IMG/VR virus record: IMGVR_UViG_3300037261_000066
Coordinates: 1 to 26,488 of that record
Direction: 5' to 3' (one strand)
Length of the DNA stretch: 26,488 bases
DNA from: a virus
The position numbers and the translations under genes were made by a program. Below the pieces are notes generated by a model. That model saw only the letters and a list, made by a program, of their open reading frames with translations. It was not told where the DNA came from and ran no database searches. The stretch's first letter is position 1. Each line of letters begins with the position of its first letter. Shown here piece after piece: positions 161 through 20,142 of the stretch.

Positions 161-234
161 GTGACGTTAGCTTAACGGTAGAGTCGCTGGCTGTGACCCA
201 GTGTGAATGGGTTCAACTCCCATACGTCACCCCA
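161..234 (+). tRNA. tRNA-His (GTG anticodon), CCA encoded
   Basis: A full cloverleaf can be folded by hand. The acceptor GTGACGT (161-167) pairs with ACGTCAC (224-230), all 7 bp. The D arm has loop AACGGTA, the anticodon stem is GCTGG/CCAGT with loop CTGTGAC (anticodon GTG), and the T arm is ATGGG-TTCAACT-CCCAT. C231 is the discriminator and CCA (232-234) is encoded. C73 is typical of tRNA-His, but the base before position 1 is T, not the G-1 that bacterial tRNA-His genes usually encode. It precedes a small phage gene, so it is probably a phage-borne tRNA within the late region. Confidence 0.9.
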
Positions 235-773: not shown

Positions 774-1940
774 ATGGCATTACAAATGGTATTACAGAAA
801 GCAATCGGTAGTTCAGACACCACCGCATTGTTAGTTGGACCCTCTCTGTTCCCTGGAACGGGTGGGCTTATTCAGATTGATTCTGAGAATATCTCATATG
901 TGATGTCTTCAGACAATCAGCTTTATGACTTAGTACGCGGTATGAATGGCACCACACCGGCAGCTCATTTGGTAGGGGCCGTTATTACTCTTCTGGAAGC
1001 TTATCCGTTTGATCCTGAACAGCCAGCCCGTGTTGAGACAAATGCTGTCTCTCATGCGTATCTTCCCCCTAGCGTCAGCATCACCGTCCCCACCCCAGTG
1101 CTCCCTCAGATTGATGTGGATCAGTTCAACGTTATTAACGTTAATGCTTCTAGTTCTTCAAATGCTACGTTAGGACGAGCTTCTTCCTTCGGTGTGTTGG
1201 GTGATACGGCGGTAACGAATACTGGATCTACGGTTATTCAGGGCGACCTGGGTATCTCCCCTGGAACGTCTATTACTGGCTTCCCTCCGGGCACCTACAC
1301 TGGGGCTCTGCATCAAACTGATACAGCTGCTGCCAATGCTCACACAGATGCTACAGCTGCGGCTACGGCGCTGGATGCTGTGACGCCTGTCATTGACATC
1401 AGCTCTACGGACTTAGGTGGTGATACCGTAGTGCCTGGACATTATGATGCTTCTTCATCGGGAACATGGTCTGCTGGAGATCTCACATTAAATGGAGCTG
1501 GGACGTATATTTTTACGTTTGATACTTCATTGACAATGCCCGCTAGTGCTAATGTCGTTCTTACTAATGGCGCTACGGCAGATAAGGTGTATTTCATCAC
1601 TGGAACGACCTTTACGTTTGGAGCGAACTGCACTGTGAATGGCACTATCCTCGCTGGCACTTCGATTACCTTCGCAGCGAATAGCGTTCTGAATGGACGT
1701 GCATTGACATACGGTCCGTCCGGAACGACAGTGACATTCCCTAGCGCCGGTACCGTCATTGTGCCTCCTAGCCAAACGTGGACACTTCCTGCTCCTACGC
1801 TTAATCTAGTGGGGCATGTCTTGCATGTGACAGCCAGTGGTACAGCCACCCAATTAGTTAATGGGGTCAGTATCACTCCCGGTCATGGACAGATGTTTGT
1901 GTGGGATGTCCTCGCACAAGCTTGGGCTGTTGTTGCGTAA
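774..1940 (+). CDS. Predicted virion protein with DUF3494 ice-binding-like domain
   Basis: The 388-aa protein has three parts. Residues 1-95 resemble an N-terminal module seen in phage fibre proteins (IDSENISYV, then RGMNGTTPAAH and a hydrophobic end); the same pattern occurs at the start of the 697-aa fibre protein at 18049. Residues about 131-322 match the ice-binding DUF3494 fold: FGVLGDTAVTNTG, GDLGISPGTSITGFPPGT, the Ala-rich helix (about 183-200), DLGGDTVVPGHY, then short T/N-rich beta-helix turns ending VNGTILAGTSITF and LNGRAL. Residues 323-388 form a beta-rich tail. Bacterial relatives usually carry a signal peptide; none is present, which fits incorporation into the particle. GGAG (761-764) lies nine bases before ATG 774. 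The family is known for ice binding but also has members without shown activity, so ice binding itself is inference. Confidence 0.85.
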   Translation: MALQMVLQKAIGSSDTTALLVGPSLFPGTGGLIQIDSENISYVMSSDNQLYDLVRGMNGTTPAAHLVGAVITLLEAYPFDPEQPARVETNAVSHAYLPPSVSITVPTPVLPQIDVDQFNVINVNASSSSNATLGRASSFGVLGDTAVTNTGSTVIQGDLGISPGTSITGFPPGTYTGALHQTDTAAANAHTDATAAATALDAVTPVIDISSTDLGGDTVVPGHYDASSSGTWSAGDLTLNGAGTYIFTFDTSLTMPASANVVLTNGATADKVYFITGTTFTFGANCTVNGTILAGTSITFAANSVLNGRALTYGPSGTTVTFPSAGTVIVPPSQTWTLPAPTLNLVGHVLHVTASGTATQLVNGVSITPGHGQMFVWDVLAQAWAVVA

Positions 1941-2011: not shown

Positions 2012-2263
2012 ATGTGGCCCTCCAAGCCTAAAGCACAGCTGACTACCGTTGAACAGCAAATCTCAGCTATTAAAATGGCTGAGCTAGAGATGCGTATTGC
2101 TGGACTGGAACAAGCGATTATTGAGCTGTGCTATGCCATAAAAGACCATGTAGAGAGAATTGATCATAACACCAGAGCATTAGATGAGAAGATTAATCAA
2201 CTCTATGCAATGACTATATCAGCTCCAAAGAATATGCTTGGGGAGAACAAGGAGCCAAACTAA
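2012..2263 (+). CDS. Coiled-coil protein upstream of terminase (83 aa)
   Basis: An AAGGAGAA SD (2000-2007) precedes ATG 2012. About residues 10-68 form a long amphipathic helix with heptad-like spacing of I, L, V and M, predicting a coiled coil. The ends are short and polar, and there is no membrane segment. The stop codon directly abuts the ATG of the large terminase, so the two are probably translationally coupled. The position and coiled coil recall a small terminase subunit, but at 83 aa it is shorter than usual and I see no clear helix-turn-helix, so that assignment is only a possibility. Confidence 0.75.
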   Translation: MWPSKPKAQLTTVEQQISAIKMAELEMRIAGLEQAIIELCYAIKDHVERIDHNTRALDEKINQLYAMTISAPKNMLGENKEPN

Positions 2264-3619
2264 ATGGCAGAGGGGGCGGAGCAGAGACAAACCGTCTTCA
2301 CCCCTCACGAGCTACAACAGAAGGTGCTCGATTCAGAAGCAGAACAACTTTTATTAGTGGCTGGGCATAGATCAGGAAAGACTTCTGTTGGTGCTATCTG
2401 GCTTATTCGTGAGATAGCCAATGACATGAAGGCTGGTATCAAAGCTGACTACTTAGTGCTAGGTCCTACATATCGTATTCTAAATCAATCCACGCTACGT
2501 ACCCTCTTCGGATACTGGCCTCGTGGAATGGGTGAATATAAGAAGCAGGATAGCATTATTCAGTTGGCTAATGGCGGAGTAGTGTGGATACGCTCTGCGG
2601 ACAAGCCGGATGCCGTCGAGGGCCTCACGGCCCGCCGTGCTTGGATGGATGAGGCTGCACTTTGCAATGAAACCACATATGACAAGGTATGTCAGCGCTT
2701 AGTACAGAAGGCTGGTGAGCCGAAGGGTCGTCTCTTAATGACCACGACGCCGTACGGTAGTCCCGCGTCGTGGATGAACATTCGCTTGATAGAGCAGCGA
2801 AAGTTCTTGCCATGGCTGTTCTACATCAATTTCTCAATGGCCGACAATCCTTACATTGATAAGGCTGTGTATGACCGCGCTAAAGCCACGATGAACGAAA
2901 GCATATTTCAAAGAGACTTTGAAGGGCGCTTTGTTCAAATCGAAGGTTTGATTTACCCTGAGTTCAACCGTCACGATCATGTTTGTGATGCTTTTGAAAT
3001 ACCTTCACATTGGCCAAGATGGGCTGGATTGGATTATGGTTGGTCAGACCCCACTTCAATTCTAGGGATCACATTTGACCCTGAGAGCAAAAAATTCTAT
3101 CTATTTACTCAGTTCTATAAGAACCGTCAGCTCTCTGAAGTAATAGGTAAATACATTAGCCACAATAATTTTACCTACACCCTTTGGGACCCAGCAGCTG
3201 TCGCCGTTATGAACGAAACAAGATCTGTGTGTAAGCTTCGTTTTGAGCAAGCTGACAACTCTGTAGACGTAGGTATACAACGCGTAACAAAGTTGTTGAA
3301 AGAAAACCGTCTTGTGTTCTTCGATAGTTGTGAAGACGCCATTCGTGAAATGGAGGGATATTGTTATGCGCCTGGGTCTACTAAACCTGCTCATGATAAT
3401 AGTCACAGCCCTGACTCTATACGGTACGGTTTTTCTAAAAACTTGGCAGGTATCTATGACCTCATTCGGGTGGGTGGTGTATCAAGAAAAAGAACGGGTA
3501 ACACAGACTTTGATCCCTTAGACCTATACAAGAAGCCAAAATCAAAACGTAACAAAAAATTCTATACGAACGACCTACTTCCATACGAGTCGTTCACAGA
3601 CATCTCAGGAGATGATTAA
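2264..3619 (+). CDS. terL: Terminase large subunit (ATPase and nuclease)
   Basis: This is the DNA-packaging motor, which pumps DNA through the portal and cuts it. The ATPase half shows a Walker A motif AGHRSGKT (residues 33-40), a Walker B-type ARRAWMDEA with D129-E130, and a coupling motif LLMTTTPYG (157-165). The RNase H-like nuclease half shows acidic positions at D257 (WAGLDYGWSD), D309 (TLWDP) and D378/D384 (HDNSHSPDSIRYG), the expected metal-binding set. Its 451 aa is normal for the family, and all key residues are present, so it looks functional. AAGGAG (2249-2254) serves as SD. The gene overlaps the portal gene by one base (TAATG), the usual terminase-portal order. Confidence 0.96.
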   Translation: MAEGAEQRQTVFTPHELQQKVLDSEAEQLLLVAGHRSGKTSVGAIWLIREIANDMKAGIKADYLVLGPTYRILNQSTLRTLFGYWPRGMGEYKKQDSIIQLANGGVVWIRSADKPDAVEGLTARRAWMDEAALCNETTYDKVCQRLVQKAGEPKGRLLMTTTPYGSPASWMNIRLIEQRKFLPWLFYINFSMADNPYIDKAVYDRAKATMNESIFQRDFEGRFVQIEGLIYPEFNRHDHVCDAFEIPSHWPRWAGLDYGWSDPTSILGITFDPESKKFYLFTQFYKNRQLSEVIGKYISHNNFTYTLWDPAAVAVMNETRSVCKLRFEQADNSVDVGIQRVTKLLKENRLVFFDSCEDAIREMEGYCYAPGSTKPAHDNSHSPDSIRYGFSKNLAGIYDLIRVGGVSRKRTGNTDFDPLDLYKKPKSKRNKKFYTNDLLPYESFTDISGDD

Positions 3620-7337: not shown

Positions 7338-7412
7338 TGCACGCAAGTGATCTGGCGATCATTCAAGTCTCATAAGCTTGAGGGCGTGGTTCGAATCCAC
7401 GGCGAGCACCCA
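7338..7412 (+). tRNA. tRNA with CAT anticodon (Met or Ile2), CCA encoded
   Basis: Acceptor TGCACGC (7338-7344) pairs with GCGAGCA (7402-7408), with one A-A mismatch at the fourth pair. The D arm is GTGA-TCTGGCGA-TCAT. The anticodon stem CAAGT/GCTTG holds loop CTCATAA with anticodon CAT. The T arm is a canonical CGTGG-TTCGAAT-CCACG. C7409 is the discriminator and CCA is encoded at 7410-7412. It lacks the GGG/CCC anticodon stem and C1-A72 mismatch of initiators, so elongator Met or Ile2 (lysidine-modified) is more likely; sequence alone does not decide. Position 8 is A instead of the near-universal T, so it may be divergent or decaying. It begins only nine bases after the scaffold stop. Confidence 0.8.
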
Positions 7413-7460: not shown

Positions 7461-7590
7461 CAAGCAAATCCCCCTGTTGTACAAGGATAAGGAATGTGTC
7501 AAAGGAATCTGGACAAGCGACAGCCCCGGAAGATAATGATGCGATAGCGGCTTAGACGGCTATAATTCTGGAACTTGTACAACTTGCTTG
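7461..7590 (+). promoter_or_regulatory. MCP leader: 17-bp bulged helix closing an 88-base domain
   Basis: CAAGCAA (7461-7467) and GTTGTACAAG (7476-7485) pair with CTTGTACAAC (7574-7583) and TTGCTTG (7584-7590). This gives a 7-bp and a 10-bp helix separated only by an 8-base bulge (ATCCCCCT) on the 5' side. The enclosed 88 bases contain ATAGC/GCTAT (7544-7548 and 7559-7563). The helix ends 47 bases before the MCP start. It is probably an mRNA leader structure that controls, stabilises or marks processing of the MCP transcript. The core 8-mer TTGTACAA is itself a palindrome, so two operator sites about 98 bp apart are an alternative. I do not recognise a known riboswitch or ribozyme class. Confidence 0.55.
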
Positions 7591-7637
7591 AGATATTGCG
7601 CTCACAAGTATATTGTGTAACAGAAGGTATTACTACT

Positions 7638-7989
7638 ATGGCTCTTAATCCGAACCTAACGAGTACTTCTGGTTTGAATGATGCGTCAGCTATTTTCTAT
7701 GATAGAAAGTTGCTTACGCGTCTTATGTTTTCCTTGTTCTTCCAGGAAAACGCGGAGAAGCGAACGCTTCCTCGTCAGACCGGTACTCAGATCCAATTCC
7801 TGCGCCCTGTAAATCAGGCTGCGGTCACCACGCCCCTGGGCGAAGGCACGAACCCCAATGGTCAAGTTTGGCAGTCCACCAAAATCTTGGCTACGCCCGT
7901 ACAATACGGCGCGTATGTTGCGTACTCCGACAGACTTATGCTGGAAGCGTATGACAACATCACTGAAGCCATTCACGACGTTCTTGGCT
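7638..7989 (+). CDS. Major capsid protein, exon 1 (N4-gp56-like family)
   Basis: Exon 1 encodes the first 117 residues plus one base of codon 118. The start is ATG 7638 with SD AGAAGG (7622-7627); in-frame codons further upstream lie inside the structured leader. The sequence follows the N4-gp56 capsid pattern: YDRKLLTRLMFSLFFQENA, a basic strand region (RTLPRQTGTQIQFLRPVNQ), TTPLGEGTNPNG, then QYGAYVAYSDRLMLEAYDN and ITEAIHDVLG. Without splicing the frame reaches TAA at 7995-7997, giving a 119-aa fragment. Joined to 8632-9224 it gives a 314-aa protein with an uninterrupted family pattern across the junction (VLG-Y-QAGLSLDT). The junction is supported by P1 and P10 pairings of the group I intron. 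The MCP forms the HK97-fold shell and should be among the most expressed genes. Confidence 0.92.
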
Positions 7990-8631
7990 TAAATTAACTG
8001 ATAGGTCAAGTAAAATTGGGTAAAAACGGAAAATAGCCATTGACAAATGGCCAATTCCGTGTTAAGCTAAAGTGTAACAGCTTTAGCCAATGTAGAGAGT
8101 AGGGAGTGAAGAATAGATGAAGCGAGTTTGTCCTAATAAGCAGTTTTGTAAAAGGGGCCACGATACTTTTACGGTTGGGCGTGACACATTTCATAATCAG
8201 TGCTTGGAATGTAAGCACCAACTAGAAAAGACTTGGCACTCTAAAAATCCGCTTGTCTGGCGAACAAAAAGCTGGAAAACGCAGGGCATTAGAAACGCAG
8301 ATGGAACGGATTTTACCGTGGTTGATTTCGATAGACTTTATCAAATCCAACAAGGAAAATGCGCCATCTGTGATAGGCATAGTAGCGAATTAAAACTAAC
8401 TCTTTCTGTAGACCACAACCATATTACAGGAATCGTTAGAGGGCTATTATGTAAAGGCTGCAATTATTTTCTGGGTTCTGTTGAAAATGAAACTTATAAA
8501 AAGTTTCTCGCTTACCTCGACCGAAATAATCTCCCCACGAATACCCAACAAGCTTAATAGCTTGAAGATGTACTCCGAACAACGTAGTAATACGTTGATG
8601 TGATGATAAAAAACCTCACGATAACATATTG
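7990..8631 (+). ncRNA. Group I self-splicing intron (IA-like) in the MCP gene
   Basis: All core helices can be read. P1: exon CTTGGCT (7983-7989) plus TA pairs with TAGGTCAAG (8002-8010), placing a U-G wobble (7989, 8004) at the 5' splice site. P10: CTGAT (7998-8002) pairs with exon 2 ATCAG (8632-8636). P3: TTGGGTA (8016-8022) with TACCCAA (8542-8548). P4: ACGGAA (8026-8031) with TTCCGT (8055-8060). P5: GCCATT (8036-8041) with AATGGC (8046-8051). P6: GCTAAAG (8066-8072) with CTTTAGC (8081-8087). P7: GAGTA (8097-8101) with TACTC (8571-8575). P8: CAAGCT (8549-8554) with AGCTTG (8559-8564). P9: AACGTA (8581-8586) with TACGTT (8591-8596) and a GTAA loop. AAGATG before P7' resembles conserved J8/7. 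The intron ends in the expected G (8631). The insert between P7 and P3' is where subgroup IA carries P7.1/P7.2. Confidence 0.93.
8117..8557 (+). CDS. Intron-encoded HNH homing endonuclease (endonuclease VII type)
   Basis: The 146-aa protein ends in a recombination endonuclease VII-type HNH domain (about residues 76-120): CAIC (C82, C85), LSVDHNHITGIVRGLLC with D99-H100 and H102, then C112-K-G-C115-N116. Two CxxC pairs would hold zinc, and D99, H100 and N116 match the catalytic Asp, His and Asn expected from T4 endonuclease VII. A second Cys set near the N-terminus (C5, C11, C29, C32, with H15) looks like another zinc site for DNA binding. Such enzymes cut intron-free alleles so that the intron is copied in. 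AGGGAG (8101-8106) is a possible SD, ten bases from ATG 8117. The last codons overlap intron helices P3' and P8, so this end is both coding and structural. Confidence 0.9.
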   Translation: MKRVCPNKQFCKRGHDTFTVGRDTFHNQCLECKHQLEKTWHSKNPLVWRTKSWKTQGIRNADGTDFTVVDFDRLYQIQQGKCAICDRHSSELKLTLSVDHNHITGIVRGLLCKGCNYFLGSVENETYKKFLAYLDRNNLPTNTQQA

Positions 8632-9224
8632 ATCAGGCTGGGTTGTCCCTGGATACTATTTGTCGTAATGCCCTCACCGGCAATATGACCATTCAGTATA
8701 CTGGTACGGCTGTCAGTGAAATTACTGTCAGTGTTGTTGCTTTGGCGATTGACTTCCGCCGAGCGTCTGCGTTCCTACGCGGACTGGCTGTCCTGCCGTT
8801 TGAGGATGGTTGCTATCACGGATTGGTGCATCCGAACACGTCATTCGACCTTCAGTCTGACAGTAACACTGCCAGCTGGATCGAGTTGAATAAGTACGTG
8901 AGCATCGACAAAGTGCATGAAGGCGCTTTGGCTGGTGAACTTGGAAAGATGTCAAACATCCGCTTCCAGGAATCTCAGAACATTGCAACTGGTGTAGGAG
9001 CGGCGTCAGCCGTGACTTATCACAGCTGGGTGTTCGGGAAAGAATCATTTGGTGCGGTCGATGTGGCCAACCAGGGGATTCAGAAAATCGTACATCAACC
9101 TGGTGATTCAGGCGTGGCCGATCCGTTAAACCTCAACGGAACGATTGGTTGGAAGTGCTATGCGGTGTATCCCATCCTAGACTCTAATCGTGCAGTTGAA
9201 GTCATTGGTACCTCAAACGGGTAA
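8632..9224 (+). CDS. Major capsid protein, exon 2
   Basis: Exon 2 supplies the second base of codon 118 onward and ends at TAA 9222-9224. It opens with ATCAG, which pairs with the intron's internal guide (P10), then QAGLSLDTICRNALTGN and QYTG, a conserved-looking block of N4-gp56-type capsid proteins. It continues through DFRRASAFLRG and GCYHGLVHPNTSFDL (the peripheral and axial regions of an HK97-type fold) to a C-terminal strand region ending KCYAVYPILDSNRAVEVIG. The first in-frame start-like codon (TTG 8643) is not a real start: the frame continues upstream to the splice site and has no SD. Together with exon 1 the product is 314 aa, normal for the family. Confidence 0.92.
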
Positions 9225-11145: not shown

Positions 11146-11754
11146 ATGGGTGTATTGACATACATTTTTCCGTCATCAACGCTAAATTTTATAACCTATA
11201 CAGCTTTGCGTTGGGGATACACTCCCATTATTAATTATACGTCAGGTGGAATAGCCGGTCAGGAAGTAGTATCCACTGACTCAAACCATAACATCTATGT
11301 GCAGATACAGAGCGGTGTATCTACAAATGCGGAGATTAAGGCTGCAATCGCCGCAACGGTGCCATCTGGGGACGGTATGTCAGCTGGGGATTACGTCAGC
11401 GTAGCTATAACGGGTGGACATACAGCAGATACTAATGTGCCTGGAAGCAGCCCTACAATGACGGGGGCCGTATCCCCGGATTTCCAAGGATTCTATGTAG
11501 ATGACACTATTACACCTTTGACTGCCTCTTACCAGCTTTTTAGATTTCCTATGGTGTCTAAGCATATTACACTTCAGAACCGTACTTTGAATAGTAATTT
11601 TAATATCATGTATAGCTGGGATGGCATCAACAATCACGGCCTGATTGAAACCAATCAATCGACTCTTTTAGACAAGACCAATGTCTCTCTAATCTATTTG
11701 AAGTATATCAACGGAGCGCCATCGTACAAACTGATGGTTAAAACAACAACCTAA
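11146..11754 (+). CDS. Two-domain virion protein with C-terminal SWDG-type domain (202 aa)
   Basis: GGAG (11134-11137) precedes ATG 11146. The N-terminal half (about residues 1-110) includes NIYVQIQSGVSTNAEIKAA and GDGMSAGDYVSVAITGG; the latter resembles the PGD beta module of the protein at 10202. The C-terminal half (about 118-202) reads QGFYVDDTITPLTASYQLFR, then MYSWDGINNHGLIE and LKYINGAPSYKL. It is clearly related to the whole 93-aa protein at 15038 (QGFYVDQTITALTASYQYFN, FSWDGTNTHGIV, VKYATGAPAYRI). This domain therefore exists both fused and alone in one genome. The beta-rich composition and position suggest a head decoration or fibre-base protein. The stop overlaps the next start by one base. 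Confidence 0.8.
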   Translation: MGVLTYIFPSSTLNFITYTALRWGYTPIINYTSGGIAGQEVVSTDSNHNIYVQIQSGVSTNAEIKAAIAATVPSGDGMSAGDYVSVAITGGHTADTNVPGSSPTMTGAVSPDFQGFYVDDTITPLTASYQLFRFPMVSKHITLQNRTLNSNFNIMYSWDGINNHGLIETNQSTLLDKTNVSLIYLKYINGAPSYKLMVKTTT

Positions 11755-13898
11755 TGAGCGATTTTCTAACGGGCAACGTTGATGTTGTAAATCCCAGCCC
11801 TATTCCGGTAACTGGTACGGTTACTACTTCTAATCCAGGTCTTACGGACGCACAGCTTCGTGCTATACCGGTTCCGGTTAGTGGAACCATAGCTGTTAGC
11901 AACTTCCCGGCTACGCAGAACGTAGATGTAATAAATACAGTTCCTGTGACGGGCACATTCTTTCAAGCCACGCAACCAGTATCATTAGCTAGTACCACCA
12001 TTACGAATTTTCCAGCGTCCCAAGTTGTGACTTTAGCATCTACCACGATTACTGGAAGTGTGGCAGTTACTGGAGCATTCTTTCAGGCCACTCAGCCTGT
12101 GTCAGGAACCGTTACTGCTCTACAAGGGACATCACCTTGGGTTGTTAGTGGCTCTATTACCACGTCGCCCAATGTCAATGTCCATGACGGCTCTGGTAAC
12201 ACAATTACCTCAACTGGTACATCACTCAATGTAGATGTGACGAATACCGTACCCGTTACTGGTACTTTCTTCCAAACGACACAGCCTGTCTCATTGACGA
12301 GTACGACTATTACTGGCAATGTAACAGTTGTTCAACCAACAGGAACTAGTCTCCATGTTGTTGTAGATAGTGCTCCGTCAACAGTCGTTACACAGGGCAC
12401 ATCTCCATGGGTTACGAGTTTAGCTTCTACCACTATCACGGGAAATGTCACTGTTGTACAACCCACTGGGTCTAATCTTAATGTTGCTGTTTCTAATTTT
12501 CCCGCCACTGTAGCCGTAACGCAAAGTACGAGTCCGTGGGTGGTATCGGGTACTGTCACAGCCAATGCTGGAACGGGTAATTTTACCGTTGTCCAGCCTA
12601 CAGGAACAAATCTACATGTTGTCGTGGATAGCGCCCCGTCTACGGTGGTTACTCAAGGTACCTCCCCTTGGGTTACAAGTCTTGCAAGCACTACTGTCAC
12701 AGGCAATGTCACTGTTATTCAGCCAACAGGCACAAATTTACATACTGTAATAGATAGTGGTACTCTTACTACAGTTAGTACAGTAACAGCAGTAACATCT
12801 ATAACGAATGCGTTACCCGCTGGAACCAATGTCATAGGCCATGTCATCACAGACACAGGTTCTACTACAGTGGTGACAGGAACGGTAGCCGAGAATCTTA
12901 TACAGGTCGCAGGAGTAACTCTCGGAGCAACAGCAGTTACATCATATGGTACTGCTCCTGCTGCTGCGAACGTACCTGGCGTCAACGCTTTTATAACGAA
13001 TACGCCAGCTGTCACATTGGCCAGTACGACCATAACAGGTAATGTTACAGTCGTACAGCCGACCGGCACAAATCTTCATGTAGTTAATGATGCGAGTTCT
13101 GCCGTTATCGGCCACGTCATAACTGATACGGGTTCGACAACTGCTGTAACTGGAAATGTTACTGTAGTTCAGCCAACAGGCACTAGCCTACATACGGTTG
13201 TAGATAATTTTCCCGCAGATACGGATGCCGTTGCAATCGGCTCAACTACATCGGGACAACTAGGCAGTTTAAGTATGGGAGCCGTCACTACCGCCGCTCC
13301 CACCTACGTAACGGCCCAGACAAATCCCCTTTCTTTGACCACGGCGGGGGCGTTACGCGTTGACGGCTCTGGTGTAACCCAGCCTGTGAGTCTTACAAGC
13401 ACAACAATCACAGGAACGGTAACGGTCGCGGGGAATAGGACCAATAATAATGCGGTTCCGGGGGCTACGAACGAAGGCGTGCTACCCGCGCTTGCTAATG
13501 CGTCCAATCCTACATGGACGGAAGGAAATCTTGTTCTCCTTTCCGAGGATCTAACCGGTAACTTGCGGGTTAAGCAGCCTTTCCTAACCGGAGCCGATAC
13601 TTTCACTGTAGCGGCAAACGGTACAACTCTAGACGCTCATTTAACACCCGTCAAATCTTTTTCGATACAGGTCAAGGGAACAGGGGCCACCGCTACCTCA
13701 TGGATTATTGTTCTAGAAGGAAGTTTAGATAACGTGAATTTCACTACGCTTCTTCAACATATGACCTCAGACGGCGACGGTAAAATTCTTTCCTCCGGTG
13801 CGTCATTATTTCCTGTCTTATATTTTAGAAGTCGTCTTGTCCAAGTAGTTCTGGGAAGTGCTACAAACGTAGTGGTTACTATACTCGGGGTGATTTAA
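11754..13898 (+). CDS. Repeat-rich fibre-like structural protein (714 aa)
   Basis: About residues 1-590 are short Thr/Val/Ser-rich beta repeats: PVTGTFFQATQPVSLASTTI variants, QGTSPWVVSG-type units (4 copies), GNVTVVQPTGTNLHVVV-type units (6 copies) and GHVITDTGSTT (2 copies). About residues 615-714 form a distinct C-terminal domain (DTFTVAANGT, FSIQVKGTGATATSWIIVL, EGSLDNVNFTTLLQ, then LYFRSRLVQVVLG), a beta-sandwich-like tip that could bind a receptor. There are almost no Cys or long helices. Such repeats suit an elongated trimeric fibre or head filament. It overlaps both neighbours by one base (TAATG). The location between capsid and connector genes leaves head or tail attachment open. Confidence 0.8.
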   Translation: MSDFLTGNVDVVNPSPIPVTGTVTTSNPGLTDAQLRAIPVPVSGTIAVSNFPATQNVDVINTVPVTGTFFQATQPVSLASTTITNFPASQVVTLASTTITGSVAVTGAFFQATQPVSGTVTALQGTSPWVVSGSITTSPNVNVHDGSGNTITSTGTSLNVDVTNTVPVTGTFFQTTQPVSLTSTTITGNVTVVQPTGTSLHVVVDSAPSTVVTQGTSPWVTSLASTTITGNVTVVQPTGSNLNVAVSNFPATVAVTQSTSPWVVSGTVTANAGTGNFTVVQPTGTNLHVVVDSAPSTVVTQGTSPWVTSLASTTVTGNVTVIQPTGTNLHTVIDSGTLTTVSTVTAVTSITNALPAGTNVIGHVITDTGSTTVVTGTVAENLIQVAGVTLGATAVTSYGTAPAAANVPGVNAFITNTPAVTLASTTITGNVTVVQPTGTNLHVVNDASSAVIGHVITDTGSTTAVTGNVTVVQPTGTSLHTVVDNFPADTDAVAIGSTTSGQLGSLSMGAVTTAAPTYVTAQTNPLSLTTAGALRVDGSGVTQPVSLTSTTITGTVTVAGNRTNNNAVPGATNEGVLPALANASNPTWTEGNLVLLSEDLTGNLRVKQPFLTGADTFTVAANGTTLDAHLTPVKSFSIQVKGTGATATSWIIVLEGSLDNVNFTTLLQHMTSDGDGKILSSGASLFPVLYFRSRLVQVVLGSATNVVVTILGVI
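12316..13210 (+). repeat. Diverged internal repeats of the fibre-like gene
   Basis: Six units encode GNVTVVQPTG-type sequence, with starts near 12316, 12442, 12571, 12700, 13039 and 13152. Units share protein sequence but differ at many third codon positions; for example VVDSAPSTVVTQGTSPWVTS is encoded twice with many synonymous changes (about 12361-12420 and 12622-12681). Perfect DNA repeats are therefore short, which would limit slippage and recombination. Confidence 0.75.
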
Positions 13899-18048: not shown

Positions 18049-20142
18049 ATGGCATTTTTCCCAACGAGTATTGCAACCGATGCTAATTTGTATGTAGCCG
18101 TTAATGGTGTCCAAACAACGCTTGCATCTCCTGCCCTGATTAGTGATACCACCCTCACTCTCACTTCTACATCATTCTTGCCTATTACTGGGGCTATGAC
18201 TATTATTGATGGTAATAGCAGTGAAGTAGTATTCTACACTGGTATTAGTGGCAATACTTTAACAGGTGTGGTGCGAGGAGCAGACGGTACAGTTGCTTTC
18301 CCTCATCCCCCAGGAGTATTAGTAGGGGCTACTATCGTAGCAGCTCATCACAATCTGTTGAAGAATGAGATTGAAGCGATAGAACAAGCGCTAGGTGTTG
18401 GATATACAAAGACCCTTGCCAGTTTAAATGATGTCTCAATAAGTACTCCTACCATAGGACAATTCTTAGAATGGAACGGTACATCATGGGCTAATACAAC
18501 TACACCCCTTACTGGTATCACGGTCTTGACGGGTGATGTCACTGCTACTGGACCAGGAAGTGCAGCAGCAACATTAGCCACAGTGAATAGTAATGTAGGA
18601 TCGTTCACTAATGCCAATATTACAGTTAATGCTAAAGGGTTGATTACTGCCGCAACTAGTGGCTCTGTAGGTGTAACCAGCGTTACAGGAACTGCTAACC
18701 AAGTTATCGCTAGTGCCTCTACTGGTGCAGTTACTCTTTCATTACCTCAAGCTATTGGTACAGCCTCCGACACTACTTTCCGTACCCTAACATTAACTGG
18801 TAATGGTACTCAGGGTCTTATCCTACAGGGTACCAATATTGGCGTGTCCAACACTAGTTCGTTTTCTGTGTCCTCTAGTGGCGGTTCTTTATCCTTGGGT
18901 GGAACAACCGTTTTTGTCGTTGGTAATCTTGATTTACATTCTGGTACGGATATTGTATTACATAACTCGGCCAATACACATGCTATTACCATTAACTACG
19001 GGGCCATTACTGCCGATTATAGTCTGAATCTCCCACAATTACAGGGAGGGGCTTCTACATTTCTTCAGAATGATGGGTCTGGTAATCTATCATGGGCCGC
19101 TGGCGGATCTGGGTCTGTTAATACGGGTACGCAATATCAATTAGCTTATTATGCCACGTCGACGAATACGGTTAGTGGTGATCCGAGTATTATTACGAAC
19201 GCAGCCGGAGATTTAGGGGTCCAATCAACCGGTACATTACTAGGCGTTATTCAGATGGGGGCGGATGCGGGTAGAAATACATTCGTAGAACTAAATATAC
19301 CCCGAACGGGTGTATCAAGCGCTCACGGCTTCGGGGATTATACCTCTGTAACCGAATCCGCTGGCGGCGGCTATGCCAGCTACGAAACCCAGGCCGCAAC
19401 CGCTGGATCAGCAAACGGTGACCATATAGACGCGTTCCAGGCGAATGTTAGTCATGGAAGTACCGGCACACTTAATAGCCTGTACTCTTTTAATAGCGTT
19501 CCCGTAGTTCAAGCTGGAGCGGGGGTAGTCGGTGGCGTATTTGATTTTTACGCCAGTAATGTTACGGTTAGTGGTGCTACTCCTACAAATCAATACGGCC
19601 TATACGTTGAGCATCTAGTAAGCGCCGTTAATAACTACGGCATATTCTTTGCCGGGGCGAATAAAACTGATTTCGGGGCGAGTAAGTTATCCAATATTGC
19701 CAATGGTACGGCGGCTACGGATGCGGCGGCTGTTGGTCAACTTCCATTTGTTCAGGTTATATCCTTTTCAACGGCTACCCAGTTTACAACAACGTCGAGT
19801 ACGTTCCAGACCACTAACCTAACGGCCACAATTACCCCCACTTCCGCGTCTAGTAAAATATTCATTATTGCGTCCTCCAATCTCGAAAACGGGGGGGTAA
19901 GTAAGACTGCCTTAGCGACTATCGCTAGAAACGGGACCAATATTTTAGGAGTTAACGGGCAGGGATACTATCTTAATGCAACGGATAATGTGGTCCCGTG
20001 TACTTTGTCCTATATGGATTCCCCCGCCACCACCTCGGCGACAACTTACGCGGTTCAGATTAGAAACATAGATAATGCTACGACTATCCAATGGGGTCAG
20101 TCAAATACTACTCAATCTATCCTTCTCGTAGAGGTTAGGTAA
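18049..20142 (+). CDS. Large tail-fibre-like protein (697 aa)
   Basis: GAGG (18037-18040) serves as SD. Residues 1-120 are a phage N-terminal module: DTTLTLTSTSFLPITGAMTI, SEVVFYTGISGNTLTGVVRG, ADGTVAFPHPPGVLVGATIV, then a helix NLLKNEIEAIEQALG. The same pattern is found in the ice-binding-like protein. About 160-210 carry the shared TGDVTATGPGSAAATL module. The middle is beta-rich with a shaft phrase NLPQLQGGASTFLQNDGSGN (about 325-345). The C-terminal third (about 565-697) is a beta domain beginning QVISFSTATQFTTTSSTFQT and ending NTTQSILLVEVR, typical of fibre tips. Codon use appears to change near 19130 within the gene. It is probably a receptor-binding fibre attached near the adaptor. 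Confidence 0.83.
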   Translation: MAFFPTSIATDANLYVAVNGVQTTLASPALISDTTLTLTSTSFLPITGAMTIIDGNSSEVVFYTGISGNTLTGVVRGADGTVAFPHPPGVLVGATIVAAHHNLLKNEIEAIEQALGVGYTKTLASLNDVSISTPTIGQFLEWNGTSWANTTTPLTGITVLTGDVTATGPGSAAATLATVNSNVGSFTNANITVNAKGLITAATSGSVGVTSVTGTANQVIASASTGAVTLSLPQAIGTASDTTFRTLTLTGNGTQGLILQGTNIGVSNTSSFSVSSSGGSLSLGGTTVFVVGNLDLHSGTDIVLHNSANTHAITINYGAITADYSLNLPQLQGGASTFLQNDGSGNLSWAAGGSGSVNTGTQYQLAYYATSTNTVSGDPSIITNAAGDLGVQSTGTLLGVIQMGADAGRNTFVELNIPRTGVSSAHGFGDYTSVTESAGGGYASYETQAATAGSANGDHIDAFQANVSHGSTGTLNSLYSFNSVPVVQAGAGVVGGVFDFYASNVTVSGATPTNQYGLYVEHLVSAVNNYGIFFAGANKTDFGASKLSNIANGTAATDAAAVGQLPFVQVISFSTATQFTTTSSTFQTTNLTATITPTSASSKIFIIASSNLENGGVSKTALATIARNGTNILGVNGQGYYLNATDNVVPCTLSYMDSPATTSATTYAVQIRNIDNATTIQWGQSNTTQSILLVEVR

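Follow-up and report, generated by a model that had tools for sequence, protein, structure and literature searches.

What is an ice-binding-type domain doing in a gene of a tailed phage, when cold-adapted organisms are known to secrete ice-binding proteins or to carry them at the cell surface? The stretch of DNA analyzed here (the window) is an entire IMG/VR virus record of 26,488 bases, and matches to Pfam and PHROGs identify its content as a tailed-phage structural region with a terminase, an SU10-like portal, a major head protein, and structural and internal virion proteins, which bears out the phage structural context assumed in the initial annotation. The gene in question is an intact open reading frame (ORF) for 388 amino acids with an ATG start and AAGGAG upstream (Table 1). 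It follows a tRNA-His gene and had been described as lying just before the terminase; it is indeed near the terminase but does not adjoin it, since a conserved 83-amino-acid (aa) ORF intervenes, whose homologues in related viruses are found immediately upstream of the terminase or one ORF further upstream. Scans for promoters, terminators, and repeats near gene 774-1940 gave chance-level results.

Table 1. Features of gene 774-1940 and its neighborhood, in window positions; b1 to b6 denote strands of the putative ice-binding face, with residue numbers of the gene product
Feature	Positions	Strand	Basis
tRNA-His	161..234	+	upstream of gene 774-1940
Putative chimeric protein (N-terminal module, DUF3494 domain, C-terminal module)	774..1940	+	intact 388-aa ORF; missing from relatives
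N-terminal module, residues 1-131, virion-protein-like	774..1166	+	similarity to phrog_4406, phrog_1101, and window ORF 18049
DUF3494 / Ice_binding beta-helix domain, residues 132-333	1167..1772	+	PF11999, AF2, Foldseek
Face strand b1, T145-A-V-T-N-T150	1206..1223	+	AnpIBP B-face mapping, clade conservation
Face loop, T165-S-I-T168	1266..1277	+	identical to AnpIBP T36-S-I-T39
Face strand b2, S228-S-G-T-W-S233	1455..1472	+	ungapped match to EfcIBP SSLAVS; register by hand
Face strand b3, T251-S-L-T-M-P256	1524..1541	+	mapping, clade conservation
Face strand b4, T278-T-F-T-F-G283	1605..1622	+	aligned with AnpIBP S153/T156
Face strand b5, T296-S-I-T-F-A301	1659..1676	+	mapping, clade conservation
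Face strand b6, T318-T-V-T-F-P323	1725..1742	+	register by hand, beyond Pfam match; model strand 319-322
C-terminal module, residues 334-388	1773..1937	+	similarity to window ORF 15764
Conserved 83-aa ORF, between gene 774-1940 and terminase	2012..2263	+	homologues in relatives
Terminase large subunit	2264..3619	+	phrog_2, E 6e-40

The middle of the gene product is a genuine DUF3494 ice-binding-type beta-helix. The initial annotation had placed the DUF3494 pattern at about residues 131 to 322 and proposed a profile search and a structure prediction as checks, and both confirmed it. The Pfam family PF11999 (Ice_binding, DUF3494) matched residues 141 to 312 clearly (E 2.8e-38; 132 bits against a curated cut-off of 28.7). 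The AF2 model, computed with 55 window and locus sequences as input, folded residues 131 to 330 into a beta-helix with a long alpha-helix alongside (residues 184 to 201) at a pLDDT of 94 to 98, while residues 1 to 130 and 331 to 388 were poorly modeled (35 to 67). The product thus combines a profile score above the cut-off with the discontinuous beta-helix and flanking long alpha-helix of the DUF3494 class. When the PDB was searched with Foldseek, all 31 matches with an E of 0.001 or lower were ice-binding proteins, with top values for 7bwy (TMt 0.91) and 6eio (TMt 0.83), and the next match had an E of 0.6. The best matches of phmmer against PDB sequences were EfcIBP (6eio, E 2.8e-29) and AnpIBP (7bwx, E 4.2e-28). 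Because the last beta-loop (TTVTFP, residues 318 to 323) falls outside the Pfam match, the domain is a little longer than that match, with a true extent of about residues 132 to 333. Pairwise comparisons of domains gave a dN of 0.08 to 0.37 with a dS of about 1 to saturation, and hence a dN/dS of about 0.1 to 0.2 or less, indicating that the domain is under purifying selection and that the sampled transfers are not recent. Chance similarity or an assembly artefact is ruled out by the intact ORF, the low dN/dS, and the many independent contigs.

To which proteins is this domain related? A domain-profile scan of viral contigs gave at least 109 relatives, with 78 loci retained (totals of viral relatives are lower bounds). 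Identity drops sharply from about 69% to about 50%, and on this basis we distinguish a close and a distant viral group. Identity within the close clade is 69 to 81%, and cellular relatives, searched by the same method in 84,980 bacterial and archaeal species, reach at most about 50% among the matches listed. In the tree, the window domain falls within a clade of 28 exclusively viral domains (SH-aLRT 100) on a stem of 0.99 substitutions per site, and the row nearest to this clade is another viral sheath-like insert. The 250-bit cut was exceeded by 29 domains; the first copy in L002_5335 lies outside the clade and was omitted from the scaffold-change and TxxT counts given below. A tblastn search of 50,697 GenBank phage records with three DUF3494 domains gave no match up to E 0.1 (E 0.01 for one query), and the homologues in Synechococcus phage S-SKS1 mentioned in PMC11515562 were not recovered by it. 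Among the window's own kin, no homologue of gene 774-1940 was found in 11 relatives whose terminases are 72 to 82% identical, and PF11999 had zero matches in four whole relative records. The tRNA-His and the 83-aa-type ORF are 145 bp apart in the related locus L085, compared with 1,777 bp in the window. Since the gene is absent from these kin, it was either gained in the window lineage or lost in all of them, and gain would be the simpler course.

We then compared the viral domain with ice-binding proteins of known structure. EfcIBP resembles it in fold (TMt 0.83; 38% identity across the aligned region), in the long helix, and in the face positions, but it is a free-standing microbial protein, whereas the viral domain is a fused segment of a phage protein and has a more regular Thr ladder. 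AnpIBP from Antarctomyces psychrotrophicus (7bwx/7bwy) shares the fold (TMt 0.81 to 0.91), the TSIT loop, and the register of the B-face; unlike the viral domain, it is a secreted fungal protein with few Thr on this face. The T-[AST]-x-T repeats of the viral face are reminiscent of the motif T-A/G-X-T/N of the hyperactive FfIBP (4nu2; PMC7277481), although the two share only about 25% identity. To locate the face, the AnpIBP B-face (PMC7277481) was mapped onto the window by pairwise alignment, with the registers of b2 and b6 placed by hand. The resulting face reads T-A-v-T, S-S-g-T, T-S-l-T, T-T-f-T, T-S-i-T, and T-T-v-T, plus the loop TSIT, with Thr at 11 of the 12 sites in columns 1 and 4 (hypergeometric 3.6e-8, a sequence-level value that includes the two hand-placed registers). 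At this level, the flat T-rich face anticipated by the initial annotation is borne out. Over b1, b3, b4, and b5, Thr occupies columns 1 and 4 in 87% and 99% of the close group versus 29% and 79% of cellular domains. TxxT is present at each of the four scored rungs in 17 of 28 clade members versus 1 of 97 cellular domains. The Thr columns of the face are conserved at 76 to 100% in five of the six loops. At the AnpIBP positions aligned with b4, mutation of S153/T156 reduced activity to 17% (PMC7277481). However, AnpIBP does not need a regular Thr ladder for its activity (PMC7277481), which makes the ladder supportive rather than diagnostic.

The sequences that flank the domain point, with lower scores, to virion proteins. 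The N-terminal module has weak PHROGs matches to a virion structural family (phrog_4406, E 2e-5) and a tail family (phrog_1101, E 4e-4), and residues 9 to 71 match residues 27 to 92 of the structural-region ORF 18049-20142 (E 2e-4). These similarities, weak but significant, are compatible with the N-terminal phage module proposed earlier. Residues from 329 onward weakly match residues 28 to 84 of window ORF 15764 (E 9e-4). Taken together, these matches are suggestive, not strong, evidence that the product is chimeric, with a DUF3494 domain inserted between structural modules of the phage itself; virion-protein homology is weak at the flanks of gene 774-1940 (E 1e-3 to 1e-5) and strong only in relatives, such as L075 and L037.

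In these relatives, the domain is found in a wide range of proteins. When the domain was masked and the flanks were clustered, the close-clade proteins fell into at least eight unrelated scaffold groups, comprising a sheath-like protein (L012), two tail-cluster proteins (L002 and kin), a 309-aa protein (L011 and kin), the protein directly after a 428-aa candidate head protein (L001, L004, and L032), a protein of L009, a homologue of window ORF 11146 (L003), and gene 774-1940 itself. The two tail-cluster proteins were joined by single linkage and are separated here, being adjacent genes with different N termini. Placing the scaffold labels on the tree, in which many inner branches are weak, requires 14 changes, compared with a minimum of 7 and an average of 17 for shuffled labels. 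PHROGs gave no virion function for the scaffolds of L002, L011, L009, and L001. In the distant group, DUF3494 is found inside a true tail sheath (L075; PHROG sheath, E 5.5e-30, plus Pfam sheath domains) and inside a baseplate wedge protein (L037; phrog_6, E 2.7e-25). Over about 397 aa, the L012 scaffold shares 34% identity with the L075 sheath (E 3e-44) and would, by transitivity, be a sheath as well. Several contigs hold three to five DUF3494 copies.

The L012 type also reveals how freely the domain comes and goes. Four of its 11 distinct scaffold homologues lack the domain (565 to 624 aa); the other seven carry it in the same variable region, with domains from the close clade and from distant groups, and the C-terminal core is about 77 to 89% identical with or without it. 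The C-terminal flanks of L012 and L035 are 80% identical, yet their domains come from different groups. The domain is therefore both dispensable and exchangeable. The AF2 model of a domain-less sheath-like protein had a pLDDT of 40, too low to position the insertion on the surface of the sheath, and a PDB search with the sheath-like protein's profile matched only the DUF3494 domain itself. That relatives build the same domain into sheath, baseplate-wedge, and tail proteins strengthens the idea of display: for the family as a whole, display on particles is highly probable, and for the product of gene 774-1940, whose virion location and outward display we infer, it is likely.

Insertions are also seen elsewhere in this structural region. 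The homologue of window ORF 11146-11754 in L090 (18271-19500) contains about 140 inserted, unrelated residues, and the one in L003 has a DUF3494 domain after its N-terminal part, suggesting that this family is a domain-insertion hotspot. The major head protein gene of the window (7575-9224) is interrupted by about 642 nucleotides (7990-8631) containing an HNH-type ORF (8117-8557), and in L003, L085, L086, and L090 it is unbroken (314 to 317 aa). The last base is T in exon 1 and G in the insert, and once the exons are joined the sequence reads as in the relatives (GGC TAT CAG GCT). In this the insert appears to resemble a group I intron carrying a homing endonuclease; an Rfam search of the split capsid gene gave no group I intron match. 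A tRNA-Met gene (7338-7412) lies just before the major head gene; L085, L086, and L091 retain it as tRNA-Met, whereas in L090 it is a tRNA-Ala. Positions 11754-13898 encode a 714-aa fibre-like protein of many imperfect repeats (TVTGNVTVVQPTGTNLHVV, SLASTTITG) with no match in Pfam or PHROGs.

How, then, should the domain be interpreted? Earlier work took viral copies to be genes that protect the host. In PMC11515562, the available part of which makes no mention of virion scaffolds, three genes of the same Pfam family (PF11999) on Arctic vOTU contigs were termed cryoprotection genes and interpreted as serving the host, and a single antifreeze protein from Southern Ocean viruses was reported as an aid to the host (PMC8407431). 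Our literature search found no paper pairing DUF3494 with phage or placing the domain on virion proteins. That gene 774-1940 is an auxiliary gene protecting the infected host from freezing, as these papers would imply, is highly improbable, since the domain is fused to structural modules, its homologues sit within sheath and baseplate proteins, and a simple hydrophobicity rule detected no signal peptide in the window protein, in line with the initial annotation and setting it apart from secreted microbial ice-binding proteins. By the same rule, signal-like N termini are present in 67 of 93 cellular homologues, compared with 2 of 26 proteins from the close viral group and 3 of 39 other viral proteins, and three of these five viral positives have one tail-protein N terminus in common and look like false positives. 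The protein encoded at L060 3536-4609 starts like a signal peptide (MKKILLTFAISLLLFGKAFAQ), as very few viral DUF3494 proteins do, and is a better candidate for a truly secreted auxiliary gene.

The main rival keeps the domain on the virion but changes its ligand: the same flat face might provide weak, multivalent adhesion to a host or environmental polymer (capsule, exopolysaccharide, or a humic or mineral surface) instead of ice, like the Ig-like domains of other phages. Such domains, for example in T4 Hoc, are likewise optional, modular, multicopy display domains, although their fold is unrelated to DUF3494 and the ligands proposed for Hoc are not ice; as add-ons they show the same variable, dispensable pattern on many scaffolds (PMC10385173), which the optional presence of DUF3494 among sheath-like homologues matches. 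Moreover, DUF3494 is present in many soil bacteria and archaea, and PF11999 is abundant across all soils (PMC11237643); since the domain is widespread among soil microbes that may never encounter ice, membership in this family is no proof of ice binding. Against this, the Thr ladder on the ice-binding face has become more pronounced in the clade, and every one of the nearest relatives of known structure is an ice-binding protein; we regard polymer adhesion as rather unlikely. Less probable still is a neutral or stabilizing spacer, in which a robust beta-helix would bind no ligand, serve only to extend exposed loops or fibres, and spread by recombination between structural genes. Dispensability and the many scaffolds and variable positions would suit a spacer, but it would not need an ordered Thr ladder, nor would it explain the conservation of the face Thr columns together with the low dN/dS.

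We therefore favor a mobile virion-display domain that is plausibly ice-binding as the best overall explanation, with belief and doubt about evenly balanced. The DUF3494 domain would be a mobile, optional display unit, here set between two modules resembling the phage's own structural proteins, from a virus-only lineage that entered a variety of virion proteins in uncultivated tailed phages by repeated insertion. With two regular Thr ranks, as in active ice-binding proteins, its flat face would most likely order surface water; many copies would confer avidity, making virions stick to ice or to the ice-water film. Such adhesion could keep particles where liquid water and hosts concentrate, or limit freezing damage. 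Ice binding by the domain in vitro is somewhat probable, while an ice-related benefit to the phage is slightly doubtful. Only tentatively do we propose the most complete version, in which uncultivated tailed phages would possess a virus-specific, movable ice-binding module on heads, sheaths, baseplates, and fibres that adsorbs virions to ice.

The occurrence of DUF3494 in sheath, baseplate, and fibre scaffolds, as a virus-only lineage with a tightened Thr face, makes ice-gripping by viruses directly testable. If the proposal is true, materials research or cryobiology would gain a multivalent ice-binding particle that already exists in nature, and DUF3494 would be a second phage display fold that behaves like Ig-like domains. 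Some phage particles may thus carry an ice- or surface-gripping patch, with a bearing on how phages survive or concentrate in freezing soil.
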